This document shows positions 2,508-22,918 of a stretch of 22,918 bases of DNA, piece after piece (position 1 is the first letter of the stretch; each line of letters opens with the position of its first letter). The notes under the pieces were generated by a model. It did not search any database and was not told where the DNA came from. It worked only from the letters and a program-made list of their open reading frames with translations. Origin of the DNA: a virus; the IMG/VR virus record IMGVR_UViG_3300037189_004056, positions 1 to 22,918 of that record; one strand, 5' to 3'. A program made the position numbers and the translations under genes.

Positions 2508-3401
2508 GTGGGTCAAAGTACCTTTCCTGCTCCAGCATCAACTACTAATCCGCTTAGTGGTGTAACTCTTCAGCAAACAATTACTTCAACGGGCGCTGTA
2601 ACCATACCTTCAGGTATAACTCAGGTGTACGCTATTCTTATCGGTGGCGGCGCTGGCGGATCTTCAGCGGTGGTAAACGCAGGCGGTGTCGGTGGCGGCG
2701 CTGGTGGATACACTGCTGGTTGGACTGCTGTTTCTACAACTTGCACTATTGGCGCAGGCGGATCAGCCTCTTCCGCTGGCGGAAACACTATTTTTGGAAT
2801 TTTGATTGCAGGCGGCGGTGCTACAGAAAACTTTGGCGCTGGCGGTAGAGGTGGACTCACAGGTGGCGGCGGATATTTTGGCGGCACTGGTGGCCCTGCT
2901 GGCGCAAGCGGCGGTTCAGGTGTGGCGGGAAGCGCAGGTTACATTGGAATTGGCGGTGGCGGCGGCGGAAACGGCGGCGGCAACACAGGTGCAAGCCAAC
3001 CAGGTTGGGCTGGCGGTGCAGGTGGTCGCGGCGTAAGCGGCGGTGGCGGCGGTCAAGGTTCAACAGGCGCTTCTGGGGCTGGTACAAACGGAAACGGCGG
3101 CGCTGGCGGCGCTGGACAAATTGCAGGCGGCGGCGGCGGTAGTTTGGTAGCAACAAGCGGTAACTCAGGAACTGGTACTCCAGGCGCTGGCGGTAGCGGC
3201 AATTATGGATTAAATGCAGGCGGTAACGCTGCTGGTACAGGAACAGGCGGATTGGGTGCAGGCGGCGGTGGTGGATTTATTTCAGCAGGTTCAAATGGTT
3301 CAGGAACAACAGGCGGGGCTGGCGGTAACGGCGGCGGTGGCGGCGGCGGCGGAACAACTGGCGGCGTAGGCGGCAACGGCGTGTTGTACCTTTATTACTA
3401 G
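2508..3401 (+). CDS. Glycine-rich tail fibre/adhesin-like protein (copy 1)
   Basis: A 297-residue protein. After a 40-residue head (MGQSTFPAP) and a beta segment (GAVTIPSGITQVYAILIGG) it is almost entirely glycine runs broken by A, N, S and T up to a short hydrophobic end (GVLYLYY). Similar Gly-rich proteins occur at phage tail tips, and in the S16 gp38 adhesin Gly-rich segments pack as polyglycine II helices. The start is GTG, chosen because the paralogue at 3764 begins MGQSTYPAP in the same way. No good ribosome site precedes it and the preceding stop is two bases away, so it is probably translated by coupling. Confidence 0.65.
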   Translation: MGQSTFPAPASTTNPLSGVTLQQTITSTGAVTIPSGITQVYAILIGGGAGGSSAVVNAGGVGGGAGGYTAGWTAVSTTCTIGAGGSASSAGGNTIFGILIAGGGATENFGAGGRGGLTGGGGYFGGTGGPAGASGGSGVAGSAGYIGIGGGGGGNGGGNTGASQPGWAGGAGGRGVSGGGGGQGSTGASGAGTNGNGGAGGAGQIAGGGGGSLVATSGNSGTGTPGAGGSGNYGLNAGGNAAGTGTGGLGAGGGGGFISAGSNGSGTTGGAGGNGGGGGGGGTTGGVGGNGVLYLYY

Positions 3402-3410
3402 GAGATAAAA

Positions 3411-3764
3411 ATGGCTTTATTTGCTTCAATAGAACACGGCAAGATTTCTAATGTCGTAGTGGCTAACTCTCTTGCTGACGCTGAATTAGGAACAGGCTTG
3501 ACTTGTTTTGAGTTTGAACACACAGACGGAATTGTTGTTGGCGACCCTGTTGATGATAAAAAATTGGCTAAAATTAAAGCCGCAAAAGCCAAACAAGAAG
3601 CAGAGGCAAAAGCGGCAGCAGATAAAGCAGAAGCAGATCGTGTCAAGTCTATAGAATTAGAATTAGAACGCGCTCGTCAAGCGGAAGCGGAAAGACTTGC
3701 GGCTGAAGAAGCGGCTAAGCCTAAGCCTGTTACGGGCATTTTTGTGAAGGTGGAGAATAACTAA
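3411..3764 (+). CDS. Small tail-associated protein with coiled coil (paralogue of 4636-4806)
   Basis: 117 residues. The first 45 (MALFASIEHGKISNVVVANS, then TGLTCFEF and a GD) align with the 56-residue protein at 4636-4806. The rest is an Ala/Glu/Lys-rich helix, residues about 49-107, with strong coiled-coil character, ending GIFVKVENN. Small proteins of this pattern often follow tail fibre genes, where they may act as assembly chaperones or minor tail subunits; that role is inferred from position. AGGAG precedes the ATG. The stop overlaps the next ATG by one base. Confidence 0.6.
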   Translation: MALFASIEHGKISNVVVANSLADAELGTGLTCFEFEHTDGIVVGDPVDDKKLAKIKAAKAKQEAEAKAAADKAEADRVKSIELELERARQAEAERLAAEEAAKPKPVTGIFVKVENN

Positions 3765-4627
3765 TGGGTCAATCAACTTATCCCGCGCCTTCCGCTGGCG
3801 GATTTACTCGTATAGCAACACTCACTACAACTCAAACTTGGACTCACCCTGATAACCCTTCAGCATCAAACCCAAAACAAGTTCAAGTTATTTTGTACGG
3901 CGGCGGCGGTGGTGGCGGTGGCGGTGGCTGTAATCAAAACGGCTCTCCAAGCGGTTCAATAGGTTCAGCAAACGGCGGCGGTGGCGGCGGTTCGGGAATG
4001 ATGAACACTTTTACAACTTTAGTAACTGGCTCTGTCTCTGTTGTTATAGGCGCAGGCGGAACTGGCGCTACCGCTGTTTCTAGATCAACCGCAGGAAATA
4101 CAACAGGCGGTACTGGAGTTGCAGGCGGAATTACTTTTTTTGGCACTTTTGCAGCAAGCGGCGGGCTTGGCGGAACTGGCGGAACTTCATCAGACGGAAC
4201 TAACGGTACTTCGGCTGCTGGCGGCGGTGGCGGAATGTTTAACGGAACAACTTATTTATCAAGCGGCGGAAACGGCGCTAACAATACTACCGCTGCTGTT
4301 GCACCTACTCCTGCCGCTAATTTTCAAGCAGGATACGGAAACAATTTTTCTGGCGGCGGCGGTGGCGGTGGCTCAGCGTTGAATGTAAGCAGCACTACAA
4401 CTCGCGCTGCGGCTGCTGGATATGCAGGGTACGCAACTGGAGGAACAGGTGGTGGCGGCGATGTAGTGAACGGCGGTAACGCAACAGGCGGTACTGGTAC
4501 TGTTGGATCAACAGGCGGCGGTGGCGGTGGCGGCGGCGGTGGCGCTATTTCTTACAATGCGCTTTTAACATCTACTGGTGGCGCAGGCGGTACAGGCGGC
4601 GTTGGAACTGTTATTATTTTCTTTTAG
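3764..4627 (+). CDS. Glycine-rich tail fibre/adhesin-like protein (copy 2)
   Basis: A 287-residue paralogue of the protein at 2508-3401: same head (MGQSTYPAPSAGG), a beta segment with KQVQVILYGG in place of TQVYAILIGG, then glycine-rich blocks separated by short Thr/Asn/Ala stretches, ending GTVIIFF. It differs mainly in the longer non-glycine inserts (for example MMNTFTTLVTG and AGYAGYATGG), which are the likely variable, surface-exposed parts. Probably a receptor-binding or tail-tip decoration protein; function inferred from composition and position. Confidence 0.65.
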   Translation: MGQSTYPAPSAGGFTRIATLTTTQTWTHPDNPSASNPKQVQVILYGGGGGGGGGGCNQNGSPSGSIGSANGGGGGGSGMMNTFTTLVTGSVSVVIGAGGTGATAVSRSTAGNTTGGTGVAGGITFFGTFAASGGLGGTGGTSSDGTNGTSAAGGGGGMFNGTTYLSSGGNGANNTTAAVAPTPAANFQAGYGNNFSGGGGGGGSALNVSSTTTRAAAAGYAGYATGGTGGGGDVVNGGNATGGTGTVGSTGGGGGGGGGGAISYNALLTSTGGAGGTGGVGTVIIFF

Positions 4628-6821: not shown

Positions 6822-7079
6822 ATGGACACTATGTTGAAATCAGTAATCAAGTCATACCTTCGCGGCGTTATTGTTGCGGTCATACCTTTGCTAGCAATGG
6901 GAGTTACCAATCAATGGGCTTATGTAGCGGCAATCGGCGCTGGAGTCGTTAGCCCTGCTTTGCGCGCCATGGACAAGAAAGATCCTGCGTTTGGTCTTGT
7001 AGCAGATGTTGTTGATCTTGAAATCAATAAGTTGGTCAAGAAGTCAGCAAAGAAAGCGCCAACCAAGAAAACAAAATAA
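6822..7079 (+). CDS. Holin-like protein
   Basis: 85 residues with two hydrophobic segments (about 13-28, LRGVIVAVIPLLAMGV; and 31-46, QWAYVAAIGAGVVSPA), then RAMDKKDPAFG and a very basic tail (KKSAKKAPTKKTK). This architecture matches class II holins of actinophages. AGGAAGGATAG precedes the ATG; a second in-frame ATG three codons later could give a dual start, which is known to regulate other holins. It is the last gene before a strong terminator. Confidence 0.7.
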   Translation: MDTMLKSVIKSYLRGVIVAVIPLLAMGVTNQWAYVAAIGAGVVSPALRAMDKKDPAFGLVADVVDLEINKLVKKSAKKAPTKKTK

Positions 7080-7089
7080 GTCTTAACAC

Positions 7090-7126
7090 AAAAGCCTTCA
7101 TTGACGGGGAAACAATGAAGGCTTTT
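7090..7126 (+). terminator. Rho-independent terminator after the lysis cassette
   Basis: A perfect 14-bp stem (7090-7103 AAAAGCCTTCATTG with 7113-7126 CAATGAAGGCTTTT) and a 9-base loop, ending in TTTT. It follows the holin stop by 10 bases and ends the structural/lysis transcript. The A-run on the left arm means it could also stop leftward transcription. Confidence 0.85.
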
Positions 7127-7178
7127 GCGTTGGCGCTTACTTGTATTTTTCTTGCTATCATTACGGCAAGGAGGCAAC

Positions 7179-7409
7179 ATGTCGCTAAAAGACAAAATCA
7201 AGAAACACTCGTTTGTTATTGAAAAATGCCCACTTGGGCGGCTAATAGAAAGACTAACTCCAGACGATCAAAACACCTTGCTAGAAGCAATCAAAAAGGG
7301 AACGCCAACAATGACCTTGGTTGCTGCGCTTCGTGAGGAAGGCTACGCAATAGGCGAACCTTCTTTCAATCTACACAGACAAGGCAAGTGCAGATGTACG
7401 ACAGAGTAA
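7179..7409 (+). CDS. Small helix-turn-helix protein ending in a Cys motif
   Basis: 76 residues. It resembles a small actinophage family with a conserved CPLGRLIERLTPDD start (from residue 17), a middle helix-turn-helix-like region (TMTLVAALREEGYAIGEPSF) and a C-terminal NLHRQGKCRC signature. The start is set by AAGGAGG at 7169-7175; an upstream TTG in frame lies within the terminator and is not credible. These proteins are thought to bind DNA; a regulatory or terminase-related role is possible but unproven. Confidence 0.6.
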   Translation: MSLKDKIKKHSFVIEKCPLGRLIERLTPDDQNTLLEAIKKGTPTMTLVAALREEGYAIGEPSFNLHRQGKCRCTTE

Positions 7410-7651
7410 CGGAGATCCTGAACAACAGGGATAACGAGTACGGCAGCGCTCATGCTAACTTTGCCCAGACAGGGCGCGGCTGGGGCGCAATTTTAGGTAT
7501 TGACGACATACCCGCTTGGAAAGTTGCTTTGATGTTGGACTTCTTCAAAACCATTAGATGTTCCGTAAATCCTGCGCATGAAGATAGTTGGTTAGACAAA
7601 CAGGGCTATACGCGACACGGACAAGAGATTGCGATGACCGATGAGCCTTAA
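7394..7651 (+). CDS. DUF6378-like protein
   Basis: 85 residues: YDRVTEILNNRDNEYGSAHA, then a middle WKVALMLDFFKTIRC and a C-terminal SWLDKQGYTRHGQE. This helical pattern (R..eYG, K..R, DxxGY) matches the phage family I recall as DUF6378, which looks distantly like MazG-type all-alpha nucleotide pyrophosphatases, though no function is established. ATG at 7394 was chosen over GTG at 7388 because AAGG at 7381-7384 is better spaced. It overlaps both neighbours. Confidence 0.6.
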   Translation: MYDRVTEILNNRDNEYGSAHANFAQTGRGWGAILGIDDIPAWKVALMLDFFKTIRCSVNPAHEDSWLDKQGYTRHGQEIAMTDEP

Positions 7652-8672
7652 AGATCAACTAGACAGTATGCCTGAACCTGAAAGCCAAGATGTAAAAGAA
7701 CTGCGTCAAGCGCTTATGCGTATGCAGAAGCAACTACGCCAAGCAAAAGAACGCACCCAAGATTTGGTTGAAACAACGCAACAGGCGGCGTATGACGCGA
7801 TGCTAACTATGGGCGCAATTCAACCAGTACACATACCGGCACAGGATAAGCGCAAGACAAAAGGCGAAGTTGCTTTGTGGCACATGACCGATTGGCAGGG
7901 CGCAAAACAAACTACGTCATACAACAGCAACGTCATGCGCAGACGCGTCATGGAGTTTGCGGAGAAGGCTGTACGCATAACGGAGATCCAGAGAGCAGAT
8001 CACCCAGTAAAAGATGTAACAATATGTTTTGGCGGGGATATGGTTGAAGGCTTATTCAACTTCCCAACGCAGGCGTTTGAAATAGATGCAACGCTGTTTG
8101 AGCAGTATGTAAATGTTTCAAGACTTTGCGTAGATGTAGTGCGATTTGCGCTCGCCAACTACGAAAAGGTAACGGTGATCGCTGAGTGGGGTAATCACGG
8201 CAGAATAGGATCTAAGCGCGACAATGTGCCGCGGTCAGACAACTTTGACCGTATGTGCTACGAGTTGGCTAGACAGTTGCTAGCAGGCGAGAAACGGCTT
8301 GTCTGGCAGGATTGTCCTGAAGATATACAGCGAATTGAAATTGGCTCATATCGGGCGCTCCTTATTCATGGAGATGAAGTAGGGCGCAACGGATTTGCTA
8401 GCCCAGGTGCTATTGTGCAACACGCAAACAAATGGAGATCAGGTTCATATCCTTGGGAGTTCAGAGATGTTTACATTGGACACTATCACACGCACTCTGA
8501 GTGGGCTATGGCTAACGGACAAGGCTCTGTTTATCAAACAGGATCAACGGAGTCAGACAACCGTTATGCAGGAGTTATGCTCGCCGCCAGTGCAACACCT
8601 TCTCAAAGGCTTCACTTTATTGATCCAGTAAAAGGGAGAGTCACTGCTGTCTATAAAGTGTGGCTTGACTAA
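7641..8672 (+). CDS. Calcineurin-like metallophosphoesterase
   Basis: 343 residues. An N-terminal coiled coil (about 15-55) precedes a metallophosphoesterase domain with motifs in order: WHMTDWQGA (D84), GGDMVEG (D133), WGNHGR (N185, H186), LIHGDE (H243) and GHYHTH (H281, H283). These are the metal ligands of the Mre11/SbcD and YfcE superfamily; many phages carry such an enzyme, presumed to act on DNA ends or nucleotides. Motif I reads D-x-Q rather than the usual D-x-H. It overlaps the previous gene by 11 bases and ends its operon. Confidence 0.8.
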   Translation: MSLKDQLDSMPEPESQDVKELRQALMRMQKQLRQAKERTQDLVETTQQAAYDAMLTMGAIQPVHIPAQDKRKTKGEVALWHMTDWQGAKQTTSYNSNVMRRRVMEFAEKAVRITEIQRADHPVKDVTICFGGDMVEGLFNFPTQAFEIDATLFEQYVNVSRLCVDVVRFALANYEKVTVIAEWGNHGRIGSKRDNVPRSDNFDRMCYELARQLLAGEKRLVWQDCPEDIQRIEIGSYRALLIHGDEVGRNGFASPGAIVQHANKWRSGSYPWEFRDVYIGHYHTHSEWAMANGQGSVYQTGSTESDNRYAGVMLAASATPSQRLHFIDPVKGRVTAVYKVWLD

Positions 8673-8702
8673 AATCCAGAAAACCCAAAAAAATTAAAAA
8701 AA

Positions 8703-8727
8703 TCGTGGCGAGTCGTGGCGAGTCGCG
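8703..8727. repeat. Tandem 10-base repeat, with inverted copy at 9694-9705
   Basis: TCGTGGCGAG is repeated twice back to back (8703-8722) and continues TCGCG. The 12-mer TGGCGAGTCGCG (8716-8727) recurs as a perfect inverted copy at 9694-9705. Both copies lie in AT-rich upstream regions in the same orientation relative to the gene they precede. Possible operator; no known protein can be named. Confidence 0.5.
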
Positions 8728-8781
8728 CAAAACTTAAACAGGACAAACCAAATTTTCAAAAATCGCAAAAACCCAATCCGC

Positions 8782-8813
8782 TAAAATAGTCTTAGATCCT
8801 GAAAGTATCAGGA
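8782..8813 (+). promoter_or_regulatory. Candidate promoter -10 and leader hairpin
   Basis: TAAAAT at 8782-8787 is a plausible -10 box; no convincing -35 was found at the right distance. A perfect inverted repeat TCCTGA-AAGTA-TCAGGA (8797-8813) follows and would lie at the very start of the transcript, just ahead of the ribosome site AGGAAGG. It may be an operator or an mRNA 5' stabiliser. Confidence 0.4.
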
Positions 8814-8827
8814 CAGGAAGGCTAAAA

Positions 8828-9304
8828 ATGAGCGACACAATCCTCTGGTGCAGCAAGTCATCGCACCTACGTTTGCCAAACGATACTTACGAGCAAGGCA
8901 GAAAGCGTTATCTCAAGTCAGAGCAGTATAAGATTGCAGCAAGATCCCGCATTGAATTTATCAAGTGGGCTAGATCAAAGCGGTACTGCTTCCCTTGCGA
9001 AGGTACTCAACAAAGCAGTAATTACGGTTTTGGTATATCTTGGCACGATCATTGCTGTGATCAGATGCAGAAATGGCGCAAGCCGATTTTGGAGTGTCTA
9101 AAGATTTGGGCTGTTGAAGTAGCCACGCTTGAAGAATTAGAAATTCAAGCCGAACACGCACTCAGACTTTATCAACGGATCAAGGCTGAAGAAATACCGT
9201 ACTCAAAAGAATACGGAAAGAACAGAACAGCCAAGTGGCGCAAAGACCGCCAGTTGTGGCTAGACATGATTGCGCTTCACAAGCAAGCAAAGACCCAACA
9301 GTAG
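8828..9304 (+). CDS. Hypothetical protein with Cys/His cluster
   Basis: 158 residues, not recognised. It is rich in Lys, Arg, Trp and Tyr. A likely metal site consists of C54 and C57 (CFPC) with H73, H75, C76 and C77 (WHDHCC). The C-terminal half is helical (residues 85-155). It has its own leader with repeats and a hairpin and its own terminator, so it is a single-gene transcription unit, suggesting a separately timed early protein. AGGAAGG supports the ATG. Confidence 0.6.
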   Translation: MSDTILWCSKSSHLRLPNDTYEQGRKRYLKSEQYKIAARSRIEFIKWARSKRYCFPCEGTQQSSNYGFGISWHDHCCDQMQKWRKPILECLKIWAVEVATLEELEIQAEHALRLYQRIKAEEIPYSKEYGKNRTAKWRKDRQLWLDMIALHKQAKTQQ

Positions 9305-11732: not shown

Positions 11733-12396
11733 CTTAAACAACATGCTCACCAAGTCATTGAAAGGCTACGACAAGCAGCGGGATCGCAGCCAACAGGTTG
11801 AGGTTGGTCCAAGCAGTATTGGCGGCTGCCGCAGGCAAGTGTGGCATGAACTCAAGCGCACGCCAGAGACAAATCCTGATACTGAGTCATTGGCAGCAAT
11901 ACTTGGTACGTTTATTCACTCAGGGATTGAGAAAGCGGTCAAGCGTGAAGATCCGTTTGGAGACAACTTCATGACCGAAGTTACCGTTGAGTATGACGGG
12001 CTAAAAGGTCATTGTGATTTGTTCATCAAAGATCAAGGCATTGTTGTTGATTGGAAAACAACCAAAGTCAAATCACTACGCTACTTCCCGTCAAAGCAGC
12101 AGCGGATGCAGGTGCAGATTTACGGTTGGTTGCTCACCAAAATGGGTCACACCGTCAACTACGTATCGCTGGTTGCGATCCCGCGTGACGGTGAAATGGC
12201 TGAGATCAAATCGCACATTGAACCCTACGACCCGCCAACGGCGGAAGCGGGCATTGCTTGGCTTGAGGAACTAAAGTTGATTGTCGCCAACAATGACCCA
12301 GCACCAGCGCCAGAGGAAAGTGTTTTCTTTTGCTCGCGGTACTGTAACTACTATGACCCGACAGGAGAAATAGGTTGCCCAAGTATGCGGAAGTAG
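11725..12396 (+). CDS. Cas4/RecB-like PD-(D/E)XK exonuclease with Fe-S cysteines
   Basis: 223 residues. Nuclease motifs in order: GTFIHSGIE (H65), GHCDLF (D98), VVDWKTTK (D109, K111) and QVQIYGWL (Q129, Y133), the complete RecB/Cas4 set. Four cysteines bracket the domain (C35, then C203, C207 and C218 at the C-terminus), the arrangement that holds a [4Fe-4S] cluster in Cas4 and AddB-type nucleases. With the annealing-like protein at 9795 it likely forms a phage recombination pair that resects DNA ends. AAGGAG supports the ATG. Confidence 0.8.
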   Translation: MIDLNNMLTKSLKGYDKQRDRSQQVEVGPSSIGGCRRQVWHELKRTPETNPDTESLAAILGTFIHSGIEKAVKREDPFGDNFMTEVTVEYDGLKGHCDLFIKDQGIVVDWKTTKVKSLRYFPSKQQRMQVQIYGWLLTKMGHTVNYVSLVAIPRDGEMAEIKSHIEPYDPPTAEAGIAWLEELKLIVANNDPAPAPEESVFFCSRYCNYYDPTGEIGCPSMRK

Positions 12397-12719
12397 ATTG
12401 GGAGAAGGCTGAGTGCAAGGGGATTGAGACAGATACTTTCTATTGGGTTGAAGAGTCACGGAACAAAAGCGCCTACGCCTACATTGATGCGGTGCGTTCA
12501 GTTTGCGCTCGCTGCCCGATATGGAGTCAATGTCTGGAGTATGCGTTGGAGAACGAGCAGTATGGAGTTTGGGGTGGCATGACTAGCCTTGAGCGCAAGT
12601 CTTTTCTTGAACCCAACAAGTATCCCGCCCAGCAACAGCGGGCGATTACTTCTTTCAATGAGAACGGTATATCTATTGAACAGGTGAGGCAGGTTTATGA
12701 GCATACGGCTGATGAGTGA
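12375..12719 (+). CDS. WhiB-family Fe-S transcription factor
   Basis: 114 residues. The four conserved cysteines are C14, C44, C47 and C53 (AECKG; CARCPIWSQC), followed by the G-V-W-G-G turn (YGVWGGMTSLER), the full WhiB signature. WhiB proteins are confined to Actinobacteria and their phages, which fixes the host phylum. Phage versions such as that of mycobacteriophage TM4 act on host WhiB-dependent transcription. The start is TTG with AGGAGAAATAGG upstream, overlapping the exonuclease gene by 22 bases. A helical C-terminal tail follows the domain. Confidence 0.85.
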   Translation: MPKYAEVDWEKAECKGIETDTFYWVEESRNKSAYAYIDAVRSVCARCPIWSQCLEYALENEQYGVWGGMTSLERKSFLEPNKYPAQQQRAITSFNENGISIEQVRQVYEHTADE

Positions 12720-19738: not shown

Positions 19739-20410
19739 ATGGAAATCATAAAGGCGTCAGTATCGGATCTCAAGGAGTATCACAACAACCCGCGTAAAGG
19801 CAACGTGGATCTTATTGCTGAGTCATTAAGCAAGTACGGTCAATACAAGCCGATTACCGTTAGCAAACAAACAGGCGAGATCCTTGCAGGCAATCACACT
19901 TATCGCGCAGCCAAGAAACTAGGTTGGTCTGAAATTGATGTTGTTTACGTAGATGTAGATAACGTAACAGCAGCCAAGATTGTCGCAATAGATAACAGAG
20001 CGTCAGATATGGGCGAGTACGACAAGCAAGTGTTGGCGGATCTCTTGGACAGCATGAACAACCTTGACGGATCTGGTTACACTTTTGACGAGTATGACGA
20101 CTTGAAGGCTGAAATACAAGAAGCGTCTATGCCCGAACTTGAACATAAAACATACTTTTCATCTCTTGAAGTAGGCGAAACAGGTCAATCTGGTACGCGG
20201 TTTATCCCCTCACTTGGAGATTACGCTGAGCGATACATCAACAAGGCTACCCGTATGTTGATGTGCGATTATCATAACGATACGTATGTATGGATCGTAG
20301 AAGCGCTGATTGAATATCGGACAGCCAACGACATATCTAGCAACGCTGAAGCAATTTTGCGCCTTGTAGAGAACGCAGTAGGGAGAAAGTCTGAGCATGA
20401 AACTATCTGA
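19739..20410 (+). CDS. ParB/Srx-fold protein
   Basis: 223 residues. Residues 1-75 are a ParB N-terminal-like domain: NNPRKGNVDLIAESLSKYG, KPITV, and the loop GNHTYRAAKKLG (G51-R56). Phages often carry such stand-alone domains; relatives are nucleases, NTPases or DNA-binding proteins. Residues 135-215 form a separate C-terminal domain (FIPSLGDYAERYINKATRML, WIVEALIEYRTAND) unlike plasmid partition proteins. It overlaps the oxygenase gene by 14 bases, so a role in the modification system, such as target recognition, is plausible but inferred. Confidence 0.7.
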   Translation: MEIIKASVSDLKEYHNNPRKGNVDLIAESLSKYGQYKPITVSKQTGEILAGNHTYRAAKKLGWSEIDVVYVDVDNVTAAKIVAIDNRASDMGEYDKQVLADLLDSMNNLDGSGYTFDEYDDLKAEIQEASMPELEHKTYFSSLEVGETGQSGTRFIPSLGDYAERYINKATRMLMCDYHNDTYVWIVEALIEYRTANDISSNAEAILRLVENAVGRKSEHETI

Positions 20411-21272
20411 ATTACCCGTACACAAAATCAAGCGTGTTATGTCTGAAGAGGATGCAACAGCGCTAGTTGGTACAACAGTTCCCGATTATGAGCCAAATTG
20501 CACTGACGCTGGGATCTGGGTTGATGAAGATACAGATGAAATCGTGTTTGTTTACTTCCCAATGGAGCAAGAAGTTGATCTGTTGCGCGCTTCTGTATTG
20601 AATATAAATTACGGCGAGACGATCCGCCAATCAACTGGGCTAAAAAACAAATCACGCACTTTTGGTATGGCTCCACGCAAAGTATTTCAGCGCAGAGAAA
20701 GTTGTCGCCCAACATCATTAGCCTACGAGCATCCATATGAACACGCTGTCTTGATTGCTTTTGCGGAGAAGTTTGCCTTGATGTACAAAGAGTTTGCGCC
20801 TGATCTGTATGAAGCAGACAAAAAGAACCTTGCTGACGCAGGGCTACAAGACGAGTGGCGCATGACCGATGACGCGCTATGGACTTCTGGCGTAGTAAAC
20901 AAGGCTTCAACCCTGCCTTATCATCGTGACGGGTTCAATTTTGCTACTTGGTCAGCCATGCCTGTTATCCGCAGGGAGATGAAAGGCGGATACTTGACGC
21001 TACCTGAGTACAATTTCACTTGCTCATGTCGTGACGGCTGGGTAACTTTTTTTGCGGGATACAAGTATGTTCACGGCGTAACACCTATGTCTCCAAAGAC
21101 CAAAGACGCATACCGATACTCAATTGTTTATTACGCGCTACGCGGCTTGAAAGACTGCTTCACCTATGCGGTTGAGACAGCCAAAGCCAGAGACAGCCGC
21201 ACAATGCGTGAGGATCGTATGGCGCGGGCGCTTAAAGGCGATGAAGCACATCAGGTGCTAGGCAAGGGCTAA
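20397..21272 (+). CDS. JBP/TET-like 2-oxoglutarate/Fe(II) DNA base oxygenase
   Basis: 291 residues. Iron ligands are H176 and D178 in LPYHRDGFN and H226 in YVHGVTPM; R240 in YRYSIVYYAL is the expected 2-oxoglutarate anchor. Preceding stretches SRTFGMAPRK and TSGVVNKAST, and GGYLTLPEY between the motifs, are as I recall for phage TET/JBP proteins. These enzymes hydroxylate the 5-methyl of thymine or 5-methylcytosine in DNA. It is the first committed enzyme of the operon; the following genes would process the hydroxymethyl base. GGGAG is upstream of the ATG. Alternative: a protein-acting oxygenase, less likely in this context. Confidence 0.75.
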   Translation: MKLSELPVHKIKRVMSEEDATALVGTTVPDYEPNCTDAGIWVDEDTDEIVFVYFPMEQEVDLLRASVLNINYGETIRQSTGLKNKSRTFGMAPRKVFQRRESCRPTSLAYEHPYEHAVLIAFAEKFALMYKEFAPDLYEADKKNLADAGLQDEWRMTDDALWTSGVVNKASTLPYHRDGFNFATWSAMPVIRREMKGGYLTLPEYNFTCSCRDGWVTFFAGYKYVHGVTPMSPKTKDAYRYSIVYYALRGLKDCFTYAVETAKARDSRTMREDRMARALKGDEAHQVLGKG

Positions 21273-22159
21273 TGTCCTTACTAGACGATTACGCAACAAT
21301 GCACAGGCTTATAGTGCAGACCGAAAGCATGGATACTGAAGCAACAGTATTGGCTGAAGTCTCCAACCTGCTGCACTTAGACAAAAATCAAGCGGCGTGG
21401 ATGTGTTTTGTGTATCTTGCTTACTACGACATGGGATCTTTCTTGCGTTGTTTTGAGTTCACGCGCAATCCAGAGATCCCTGCCGACAAGTACCTGCGCT
21501 TATCTTGCGACACAGAAAGACGCGTTCACAGAGTACCCGCCAAAATGGAGAGACACTTTGGAGATGTTGTGTCAATAGCAGATAGCAACGGCGGCTTATA
21601 CAACTGGTTGTCTAGTTACGTTGAAAAATCCCCACAGCAGTCTTGGGTCAATATGATAAATCCCGTTGAAACCATATTCGGTAATGGGCGTTGGGCTTCA
21701 TATCGCACGATTGAAATGATTGGACAAGTCTGCGGGCTACCTGTTGAAGCGCCAGATATGGGTCACGCCAACAGCAGTGGTCCAAGGCGCGGGCTTGAAT
21801 TCTTATACTCAGATCTACCGCAGGGTAACAAGCCAGCCGACATAGCCTACTTGGATCAGGTATCTCTGGATCTTAACCGCAAGTTGGCTGAACGCGGCAT
21901 TAGTGCTAAATTACAAGATACAGAGACAGGCTTGTGCGGGTTCAAATCAATGGTGAAAGGCGACTACTATGTTGGAGAGGATCTTGACTCAATGCTTGAA
22001 GAGATCCTTAAACAACCAAGCGGGCTAACTCAAACCATATTTGAAGCGCGCAAAAATATATTCCCCCATGAGTATCTAGGGGAACTGAACGGTTGGACAG
22101 GCATGGATAGGGCTAGAAAAAAGATATACAAAGAGACAGGACAGATTGTTACTAGGTAG
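21272..22159 (+). CDS. Alpha-glutamyl/putrescinyl thymine pyrophosphorylase-like (amino acid:DNA transferase-like) protein
   Basis: 295 residues, mainly helical. Two blocks match what I recall of this phage family, which has a DNA-glycosylase-like helical fold: GNGRWASYRTIEMIGQVCGL (137-156) with a following DMGHANSSGPRRGL, and ETGLCGFKSMVKGDYYVGED (218-237). Members are thought to bind phosphorylated hydroxymethyl bases in DNA and replace the phosphate with an amino acid or polyamine, or to form the helical partner of the hydroxymethyluracil DNA kinase. Its position between oxygenase and kinase supports the assignment. The donor molecule cannot be told from sequence. Confidence 0.65.
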   Translation: MSLLDDYATMHRLIVQTESMDTEATVLAEVSNLLHLDKNQAAWMCFVYLAYYDMGSFLRCFEFTRNPEIPADKYLRLSCDTERRVHRVPAKMERHFGDVVSIADSNGGLYNWLSSYVEKSPQQSWVNMINPVETIFGNGRWASYRTIEMIGQVCGLPVEAPDMGHANSSGPRRGLEFLYSDLPQGNKPADIAYLDQVSLDLNRKLAERGISAKLQDTETGLCGFKSMVKGDYYVGEDLDSMLEEILKQPSGLTQTIFEARKNIFPHEYLGELNGWTGMDRARKKIYKETGQIVTR

Positions 22160-22169
22160 GAGAAGGCAA

Positions 22170-22703
22170 ATGAAGGTTATTTACTTGATTGGCGCACCAG
22201 GCGCAGGCAAGACAACACTTACTGAGGCTTTCACAAGAGATTGGGTGGATACAGCGCAACATGAAAACCCTATTAAGTTCAGAAGTCATCATACGCCGCA
22301 CGGAGACGCGTTATCGCTCGGTTGGCTCAGACCAGCCTTCGGTGGAACAGACACGCTCGGTAATACGGCGATATTACAAATTGAACCATGGCTCCCAAAT
22401 ATCGCCAAAGACTATTCAATCATCTACGGAGAAGGCGACAGACTAGCCAACTCACGTTTCTTTGAACTAGCAAAGAGCGTAGGAGACTTTCATCTGTTTT
22501 ACTTGAACACAGATCCAATGATTAGCGCTGAACGGCGCGCAAAAAGATCCGCTGAAACAGGTAAAACACAAAACCCAACTTGGGTTAAAGGCAGAGAGAC
22601 AAAACACAAAAACCTTGCTTTTAACTACAACGCATACGAGATCCCTGACGGACTTACACCAGAGCAAGGCGCAAATCTCATGCGTACTGTAATCTTTTCT
22701 TGA
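22170..22703 (+). CDS. P-loop kinase resembling 5-hydroxymethyluracil DNA kinase
   Basis: 177 residues. Walker A is GAPGAGKTT (G8-T16) at the N-terminus. Further motifs are FGGTDTLGN (57-65), YGEGDRLANSRFF (86-98, Walker B-like with a base-binding look), an arginine-rich lid AERRAKRSAETGK (120-132) and WVKGRETKHKNLA. GGTD plus EGDRL is as I recall for phage kinases that phosphorylate hydroxymethyl bases within DNA. GGAGAAGG supports ATG 22170; an upstream in-frame start is unlikely. A nucleotide-pool kinase is the main alternative. Confidence 0.7.
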   Translation: MKVIYLIGAPGAGKTTLTEAFTRDWVDTAQHENPIKFRSHHTPHGDALSLGWLRPAFGGTDTLGNTAILQIEPWLPNIAKDYSIIYGEGDRLANSRFFELAKSVGDFHLFYLNTDPMISAERRAKRSAETGKTQNPTWVKGRETKHKNLAFNYNAYEIPDGLTPEQGANLMRTVIFS

Positions 22704-22715
22704 TTGCGGGGAAAT

Positions 22716-22918
22716 ATGATGAGTAAAAGAGCGCCGAAGCCTGAAGTCATAGACAAAGAGCGACAGGTACTAGAACTACGCCGTACAGGTGCAGGTTGGG
22801 AAGCAATCGCAGATGTGGTTGGCTTCAGTAACGCTAGTGGGGCGTACAAGGCGTACCAGCGAGCCATAGCGCGTGTATTGGTTCAACCCGCTGAAGAGTT
22901 AAGAACGCAAGAACTTGA
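22716..22918 (+). CDS. HTH protein, possibly small terminase subunit (partial, 3' cut)
   Basis: 67 codons to the right edge, with no stop. Starts MMSKRAPKPEVIDKERQVLE; residues 17-52 form a helix-turn-helix (VLELRRTGAGWEAIADVVGF, then SGAYKAYQRAIARVL). Small DNA-binding proteins of this type often precede the large terminase gene in actinophages. GGGGAAAT is upstream. A regulator of the modification operon is an alternative. Confidence 0.55.
   Translation, partial: MMSKRAPKPEVIDKERQVLELRRTGAGWEAIADVVGFSNASGAYKAYQRAIARVLVQPAEELRTQEL

Follow-up and report, generated by a model that had tools for sequence, protein, structure and literature searches.

What do the four closely packed genes near the end of this viral DNA do for the phage that carries them? 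The window analyzed here spans an entire IMG/VR record (22,918 bases), which is probably a fragment. Its positions 19739-22703 contain, all on the plus strand, genes for a ParB_N protein (19739-20410; 223 amino acids [aa]), a TET/JBP Fe(II)/2-oxoglutarate dioxygenase (20397-21272; 291 aa), an amino acid:DNA transferase (ADDT) of the aGPT-Pplase2 type (21272-22159; 295 aa), and a P-loop kinase, Ploopntkinase3 (22170-22703; 177 aa). The genes overlap or are separated by a few bases. The four open reading frames (ORFs) of the initial annotation were recovered at these coordinates, and its domain assignments (ParB, JBP/TET, transferase, and P-loop kinase) all held in a Pfam search, in which each protein scored above the curated cut-off. 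For the kinase, a start at ATG 22170, preceded by GGAGAAGG, was preferred over the upstream TTG 22146. Scans with PADLOC and NCBIfam yielded no further information on the three enzymes, and the window gave no matches in Rfam and tRNA scans. In databases, the kinase is labeled as a terminase small subunit and the oxygenase as a queuine tRNA-ribosyltransferase.

Downstream, the module is bordered by the 5' part of a probable small terminase subunit gene (22719-22918, plus strand), which is cut by the contig end. Most related modules have this gene as well. It is complete in a 39-kb relative, L006, whose ADDT is 93% identical to that of the window: there the kinase gene (6898-7431) is followed by a gene for a small-terminase-like protein (7434-7922; 162 aa) and then by a terminase-like ORF (7795-9159). 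Thus, the kinase is the last gene of the module. A WhiB protein encoded at 12375-12719 of the window (2.5e-16), together with the named phage relatives described below, points to an actinobacterial host. When phage records were searched with the window at the nucleotide level, a single match of 119 bp was obtained.

The four adjacent genes very probably decorate thymine in phage DNA. More specifically, we consider it likely that they represent a post-replicative thymidine hypermodification module of an actinobacteriophage, in which TET, kinase, and ADDT act together, which belongs to a clade without a flavin lyase, and which has been subject to cassette exchange. We infer three steps, in this order. 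The TET/JBP dioxygenase would hydroxylate the methyl group of thymine in phage DNA, yielding 5-hydroxymethyl-dU; the Ploopntkinase3 protein would phosphorylate this base to 5-phosphomethyl-dU; and ADDT would swap the phosphate for an amino acid, giving an amino-acid-methyl-dU. The modification would probably serve resistance to host nucleases.

The last of these steps is strongly suggested by the fold and the conserved residues of the transferase. It matched the ADDT family (PF18724) with an E value of 5.5e-22 and 79.1 bits (cut-off, 26.2); a second Pfam match, to aGPT-Pplase3, was weak (E 0.025). The structural model of the protein (pLDDT 95.5) had a clearly best match in the PDB, namely 8z2m (Z 19.7, rmsd 3.0, 242 aligned residues), which is the 5-phosphomethyl-2'-deoxyuridine (5-PmdU) glycinyltransferase gp46/PUGT of the Pseudomonas phage PaMx11. 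The next folds were a queuosine salvage enzyme (Z 10.5) and helix-hairpin-helix glycosylases (approximately 9). A profile of 39 ADDT homologues retrieved the M6 transferase 25qc (1.4e-17) and 8z2m (1e-7) from the PDB, and 13 residues were identical in these homologues, M6, and PaMx11 (D21, Y52, R83, R84, G139, W141, E218, T219, L221, C222, G230, Y232, and D237). We therefore propose with some force that ADDT replaces the phosphate of 5-phosphomethyl-dU by an amino acid, which would most simply be glycine. The earlier prediction that the second of the three enzymes is of the alpha-glutamyl/putrescinyl thymine pyrophosphorylase type, which hinged on a match to the transferase family, was borne out by that match and by the PaMx11 fold. 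ADDT also fits its neighbor, since a hydroxymethyl-dU kinase would make the very substrate after which 8z2m is named, and the kinase is encoded by the next gene. The suggested order of kinase before transferase agrees with this structural match as well.

The kinase matched Ploopntkinase3 (PF18751) with an E value of 1.9e-27. Its P-loop GAPGAGKTT and the GGTD and EGDRL motifs, the latter two already noticed in the initial annotation, are all conserved, and G59, T60, D61, E88, G89, R91, and L92 were invariant in six homologues. The protein belongs to another family than the kinase of M6: M6 gp54 matched HMUDK_HMUD1 (7.7e-18), no PF18751 match was found in M6, and a comparison of the profiles of the window-type and M6 kinases showed a match around the P-loop only. 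In one IMG/VR locus, L081, a PF18751 kinase occurs together with ADDT and a thymidylate-synthase-like protein (PF00303), which links this kinase family indirectly to a source of 5-hydroxymethyl-dU. We propose that the window kinase acts as a 5-hydroxymethyl-dU DNA kinase.

The oxygenase matched Tet_JBP (PF12851) with an E value of 5.6e-11 and 42.4 bits (cut-off, 34.9). The HxD...H...R residues noted earlier are H176, D178, and H226 as ligands of the iron and R240 as the arginine for 2-oxoglutarate; all four were invariant in 37 homologues. An AlphaFold2 model (pLDDT 89.5) resembled CMD1, TET2, and NgTET1 most (Z 18.3-19.6), followed by CcTet (16-17), with FTO and AlkB at 15.3 or below. Searches of the PDB with the single oxygenase and kinase sequences gave no informative match and profiles were needed; the oxygenase profile retrieved TET2 at 6e-5. 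According to the model, the fold is of the TET type and not of the AlkB/FTO type. The asparagine located five positions beyond the HxD histidine was discarded as a possible clue to the substrate, because TET2 also has an asparagine there. Homologues of the window TET were found in 94 phage records, one of which is annotated as a thymidine hydroxylase. We know of no phage TET with demonstrated activity on thymine; for the window protein, we propose a function as a thymine-in-DNA hydroxylase.

The main support for thymine as the substrate comes from gene content. Thirteen records with ADDT were tested. Nine of them carry Tet_JBP, and none of these nine has PF00303. In contrast, the four without TET (M6, ViI, PaMx11, and L081) all have PF00303. 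Among 50 related IMG/VR records, PF00303 was found in L081 only, which is also the only ADDT locus whose lack of TET is not explained by truncation. In the PF00303 search, which covered relatives of the window, no such enzyme was detected in those with TET. The simplest reading of this reciprocal pattern is that TET replaces the thymidylate-synthase-like enzyme, a putative dUMP hydroxymethylase working at the nucleotide level, in which case TET would work on thymine in DNA. The pattern also supports the earlier suggestion that the oxygenase supplies the hydroxymethyl base after replication. Two alternative sources of the methyl or hydroxymethyl group were covered, PF00303 and the C5-cytosine methyltransferase PF00145; the IMG/VR records, including the window, are mostly fragments, so absences from them carry little weight.

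The same gene content bears on a cytosine route, in which TET would oxidize 5-methylcytosine, and kinase and transferase would act on 5-hydroxymethylcytosine. The phage TET enzymes that have been characterized act on 5-methylcytosine, which a C5-methyltransferase of the phage generates (Burke 2021, cited in PMC12730594); this is the only experimentally demonstrated phage TET activity known to us. In addition, 8 of the 50 related IMG/VR records have a PF00145 match. However, PF00145 was absent from the eight complete genomes of module-bearing actinophages that were searched and from the contigs of the window's clade. Moreover, ADDT is accompanied by a thymidylate-synthase-like enzyme in M6, ViI, and PaMx11, and in the case of PaMx11 the ADDT is a glycinyltransferase for 5-phosphomethyl-dU. 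We consider the cytosine route improbable and retain thymine as the proposed substrate.

The role of the first gene raises another alternative. The ParB protein matched PF02195 (E 8.2e-7 in Pfam) and phrog_723 (1.2e-46). A ParB homologue is encoded directly upstream of TET (51 cases) or ADDT (18 cases) in 69 modules, and the modules outside this set begin at a contig edge or at the start of the record. Since known ParB proteins of actinophages go undetected by the ParB_N family model, the lack of a ParB_N match in M6, ViI, and PaMx11 is uninformative. We regard ParB as a constant module partner that may bind DNA or load the modification enzymes. Such a protein could instead guide the three enzymes to a small number of positions near the packaging site, where a site-specific mark would serve packaging or late transcription and not genome-wide protection. 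The constancy of ParB would suit this idea, as would the fact that, in the window's clade and most of the named actinophages examined, the module lies directly upstream of the terminase genes. Yet a conserved gene position need not mean a function, approximately 30-40% of the thymidines are modified in M6 and ViI (PMC9599517), and an arms race would account better than a packaging signal for tailoring genes being gained, lost, and exchanged. A role confined to the packaging region thus appears quite unlikely, and protection from restriction is the purpose we favor.

The module genes recur together in many genomes. Among 80 IMG/VR loci found through ADDT, TET and kinase accompany it in 79 wherever the length of the contig permits a decision, the exception being L081, which lacks TET. 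This recurrence argues against a chance association. Three gene orders were observed: TET-ADDT-kinase, ADDT-kinase-TET, and, in one case, kinase-TET-ADDT. The TET protein of the second order is divergent (20-22% identical to that of the window). The named phages form a ladder of growing module content: Stinger and Cinna contain ParB-TET-kinase alone, Prince has in addition an ADDT (annotated as a DNA glycosylase), and Wooper, Tonitrus, Phelemich, Kozie, and LilMcDreamy have ParB-TET-ADDT-kinase plus a further gene. That the four are unrelated nucleotide-metabolism or packaging genes adjacent by chance, as annotations such as phrog_800 and phrog_6059 might suggest, is highly implausible in light of the specific families, the invariant catalytic residues, the TET and glycinyltransferase folds, and approximately 80 recurrent loci, and with respect to the families it is refuted by the family matches.

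Relatives differ in the genes that would tailor the amino-acid adduct. In most of them, an FAD-dependent protein is encoded between ADDT and kinase, with a homologue in 63 of 87 loci. The best PDB matches of its profile were 8z2o and 8z79, described as "Flavin-dependent lyase" (5.6e-9), and in PaMx11 the flavin-lyase homologue adjoins ADDT. An acetyltransferase is additionally present in some relatives. In most of these phages, the adduct would then be processed by the flavin-dependent lyase, and in some also by the acetyltransferase. No flavin lyase was found in nine contigs of the window's clade, three of which are 37-39 kb long, by a profile search that recovered its positive controls; an acetyltransferase was likewise not found in this clade. 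Since the lyase is absent, the product of the window's clade most likely ends at the amino-acid adduct. Among the named phages, Phelemich carries the flavin lyase. For Wooper and Tonitrus, a comparison of their fifth gene with the flavin lyase did not identify it as one (hhalign probability, 3.8).

The lyase-free group does not have the same history in all module genes. In the ADDT tree, this group (the window, L008, L010, and L012-L015) forms one clade with support 100/99, and the lyase-bearing group of L022 and L028 forms another (95/94). In the TET and kinase trees, members of the two groups are intermixed. In AU tests, TET rejected the lyase-free group held together (p 0.001), and ADDT rejected a kinase-like grouping (p 7e-6). 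Monophyly of the lyase-free group was not rejected by the kinase (p 0.07), and the incongruence is therefore based on TET, ADDT, and DNA breakpoints.

These breakpoints lie at the edges of ADDT. Lyase-free L010 and lyase-bearing L028 share 96% identity in TET (only half of which is present in L010) and 86% in the kinase, compared with 41% in ADDT. Their DNA similarity ends at the ADDT start and returns just before the kinase, continuing through the next 2.8 kb, with one short conserved patch within ADDT. Between the window and L028, ParB and most of TET are 77% identical at the DNA level, up to approximately position 21241; nothing aligns from there to approximately 22168, after which 73% identity extends through the kinase. 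ADDT evolves faster than its neighbors, and rapid divergence alone was considered as an explanation. It accounts for part of the low identity but neither for the comparison of L010 with L028 nor for how abruptly the similarity stops and resumes at the gene edges. The tree conflict and the DNA boundaries together are what one would expect if ADDT had been swapped as a cassette, alone or together with the lyase, between near-identical homologous flanks.

From here, a broader proposal can be made, whose chances we judge to be evenly balanced: the TET/JBP proteins of this group may be true thymine-in-DNA hydroxylases that feed a swappable amino-acid-transfer cassette, related phages would change the side chain through ADDT with or without the lyase, and the window's product would be an amino-acid-methyl-dU whose amino acid may not be glycine. 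Provided that the cassettes are indeed exchanged, actinophages would be able to switch their side-chain chemistry, much as T4-like phages vary in their glycosyltransferases, which bears on modification-dependent restriction; swapping of ADDT could make phage DNA chemistry a quick-change defense. The likeness of the downstream enzyme to a solved 5-phosphomethyl-dU glycinyltransferase makes thymine hydroxylation by a phage TET directly testable, and a programmable route from T via 5-hmU and 5-phosphomethyl-U to an amino-acid-U would serve DNA labeling.

The initial annotation had called the combined route largely uncharacterised, which has to be corrected. The combination is annotated in several actinophages, and for the Rhodococcus phage Tonitrus a five-gene predicted thymidine hypermodification system was published in 2025 (PMC11955845). 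In view of this system and the phage records with TET homologues, the parts of the module and their combination are known as predictions. New here are the clade without flavin lyase and the exchange of the ADDT cassette, neither of which the initial annotation could see. In the part of the literature covered, we found no description of these two or of the reciprocal pattern of TET and thymidylate-synthase-like enzymes, and we claim no priority.

The closest known systems share parts of the proposed pathway. Tonitrus, Wooper (Gordonia), and Phelemich and Reprobate (Mycobacterium) have ParB, TET, ADDT, and kinase in the same order as the window and near the terminase, with 38-40% identity to the window in ADDT and 41-47% in TET. 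They contain a fifth gene of the Rossmann or FAD type, which the window module lacks, as judged by its relative L006. The thymidine hypermodification systems of the Pseudomonas phages PaMx11 and M6 share with the window the ADDT fold with its invariant residues and the logic of kinase followed by transferase. However, M6 and PaMx11 use a thymidylate-synthase-like enzyme and no TET, whereas the window has TET; the kinase of M6 is HMUDK_HMUD1 instead of Ploopntkinase3; and PaMx11 has the flavin lyase homologue in common with most relatives of the window, in contrast to the window's own clade. The phage systems of TET, C5-methyltransferase, and glycosyltransferases reported in Burke 2021 resemble the window module in the TET/JBP family and in post-replicative oxidation, but their TET enzymes act on 5-methylcytosine, and the window module lacks a C5-methyltransferase. 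Finally, JBP1 and JBP2 of kinetoplastids, which make base J, share with the window a TET/JBP oxygenase for which thymine in DNA is the proposed substrate. To form base J, a glucose is added to the hydroxymethyl group, whereas in the window module kinase and transferase would follow instead.

The module of the related locus L081 (IMGVR_UViG_3300049048_000108) is a hybrid, in which a thymidylate-synthase-like protein replaces the TET/JBP dioxygenase (TET), together with the amino acid:DNA transferase (ADDT) and the Ploopntkinase3 protein. Among named phages, Cinna (L110:1-2179) and Stinger (L112:1-2376) carry minimal ParB-TET-kinase modules, with ADDT absent between TET and kinase; their predicted end product is 5-hydroxymethyl- or 5-phosphomethyl-dU. 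Mycobacterium phage Prince gp3 (L111:1852-2826), annotated as a DNA glycosylase, is in fact a divergent ADDT (PF18724, 1.4e-8; hhalign, 97%).

Longer modules were also found. At four loci, amidoligase-like and low-molecular-weight phosphatase-like proteins adjoin the flavin lyase between ADDT and kinase (L062:2253-4290; L063, L070 and L073), and L070 has a methyltransferase in addition. These extended modules may lead to more complex side chains. In phage LilMcDreamy, gp4 (L005:2656-3759), likewise between ADDT and kinase, is aspartyl/asparaginyl beta-hydroxylase-like (1.5e-10).

ADDT relatives were detected in Streptomyces africanus, Brevibacterium sp. and an Actinomycetes MAG (L107, L108 and L109), and these are probably proviral. 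The window itself encodes a WhiB transcription factor (12375-12719; PF02467, 2.5e-16), an actinobacterial hallmark. Two glycine-rich proteins of the window (2508-3401 and 3764-4627) start alike (MGQSTFPAP and MGQSTYPAP), and their surroundings look like structural genes.

The public labels of two families in the module look wrong: queuine tRNA-ribosyltransferase for the TET/JBP family phrog_6059 (window 20397-21272) and terminase small subunit for the kinase family phrog_800 (window 22170-22703). Pseudomonas phage M6 gp54 is a 5-hmdU DNA kinase by Pfam, yet it too is labeled terminase small subunit.
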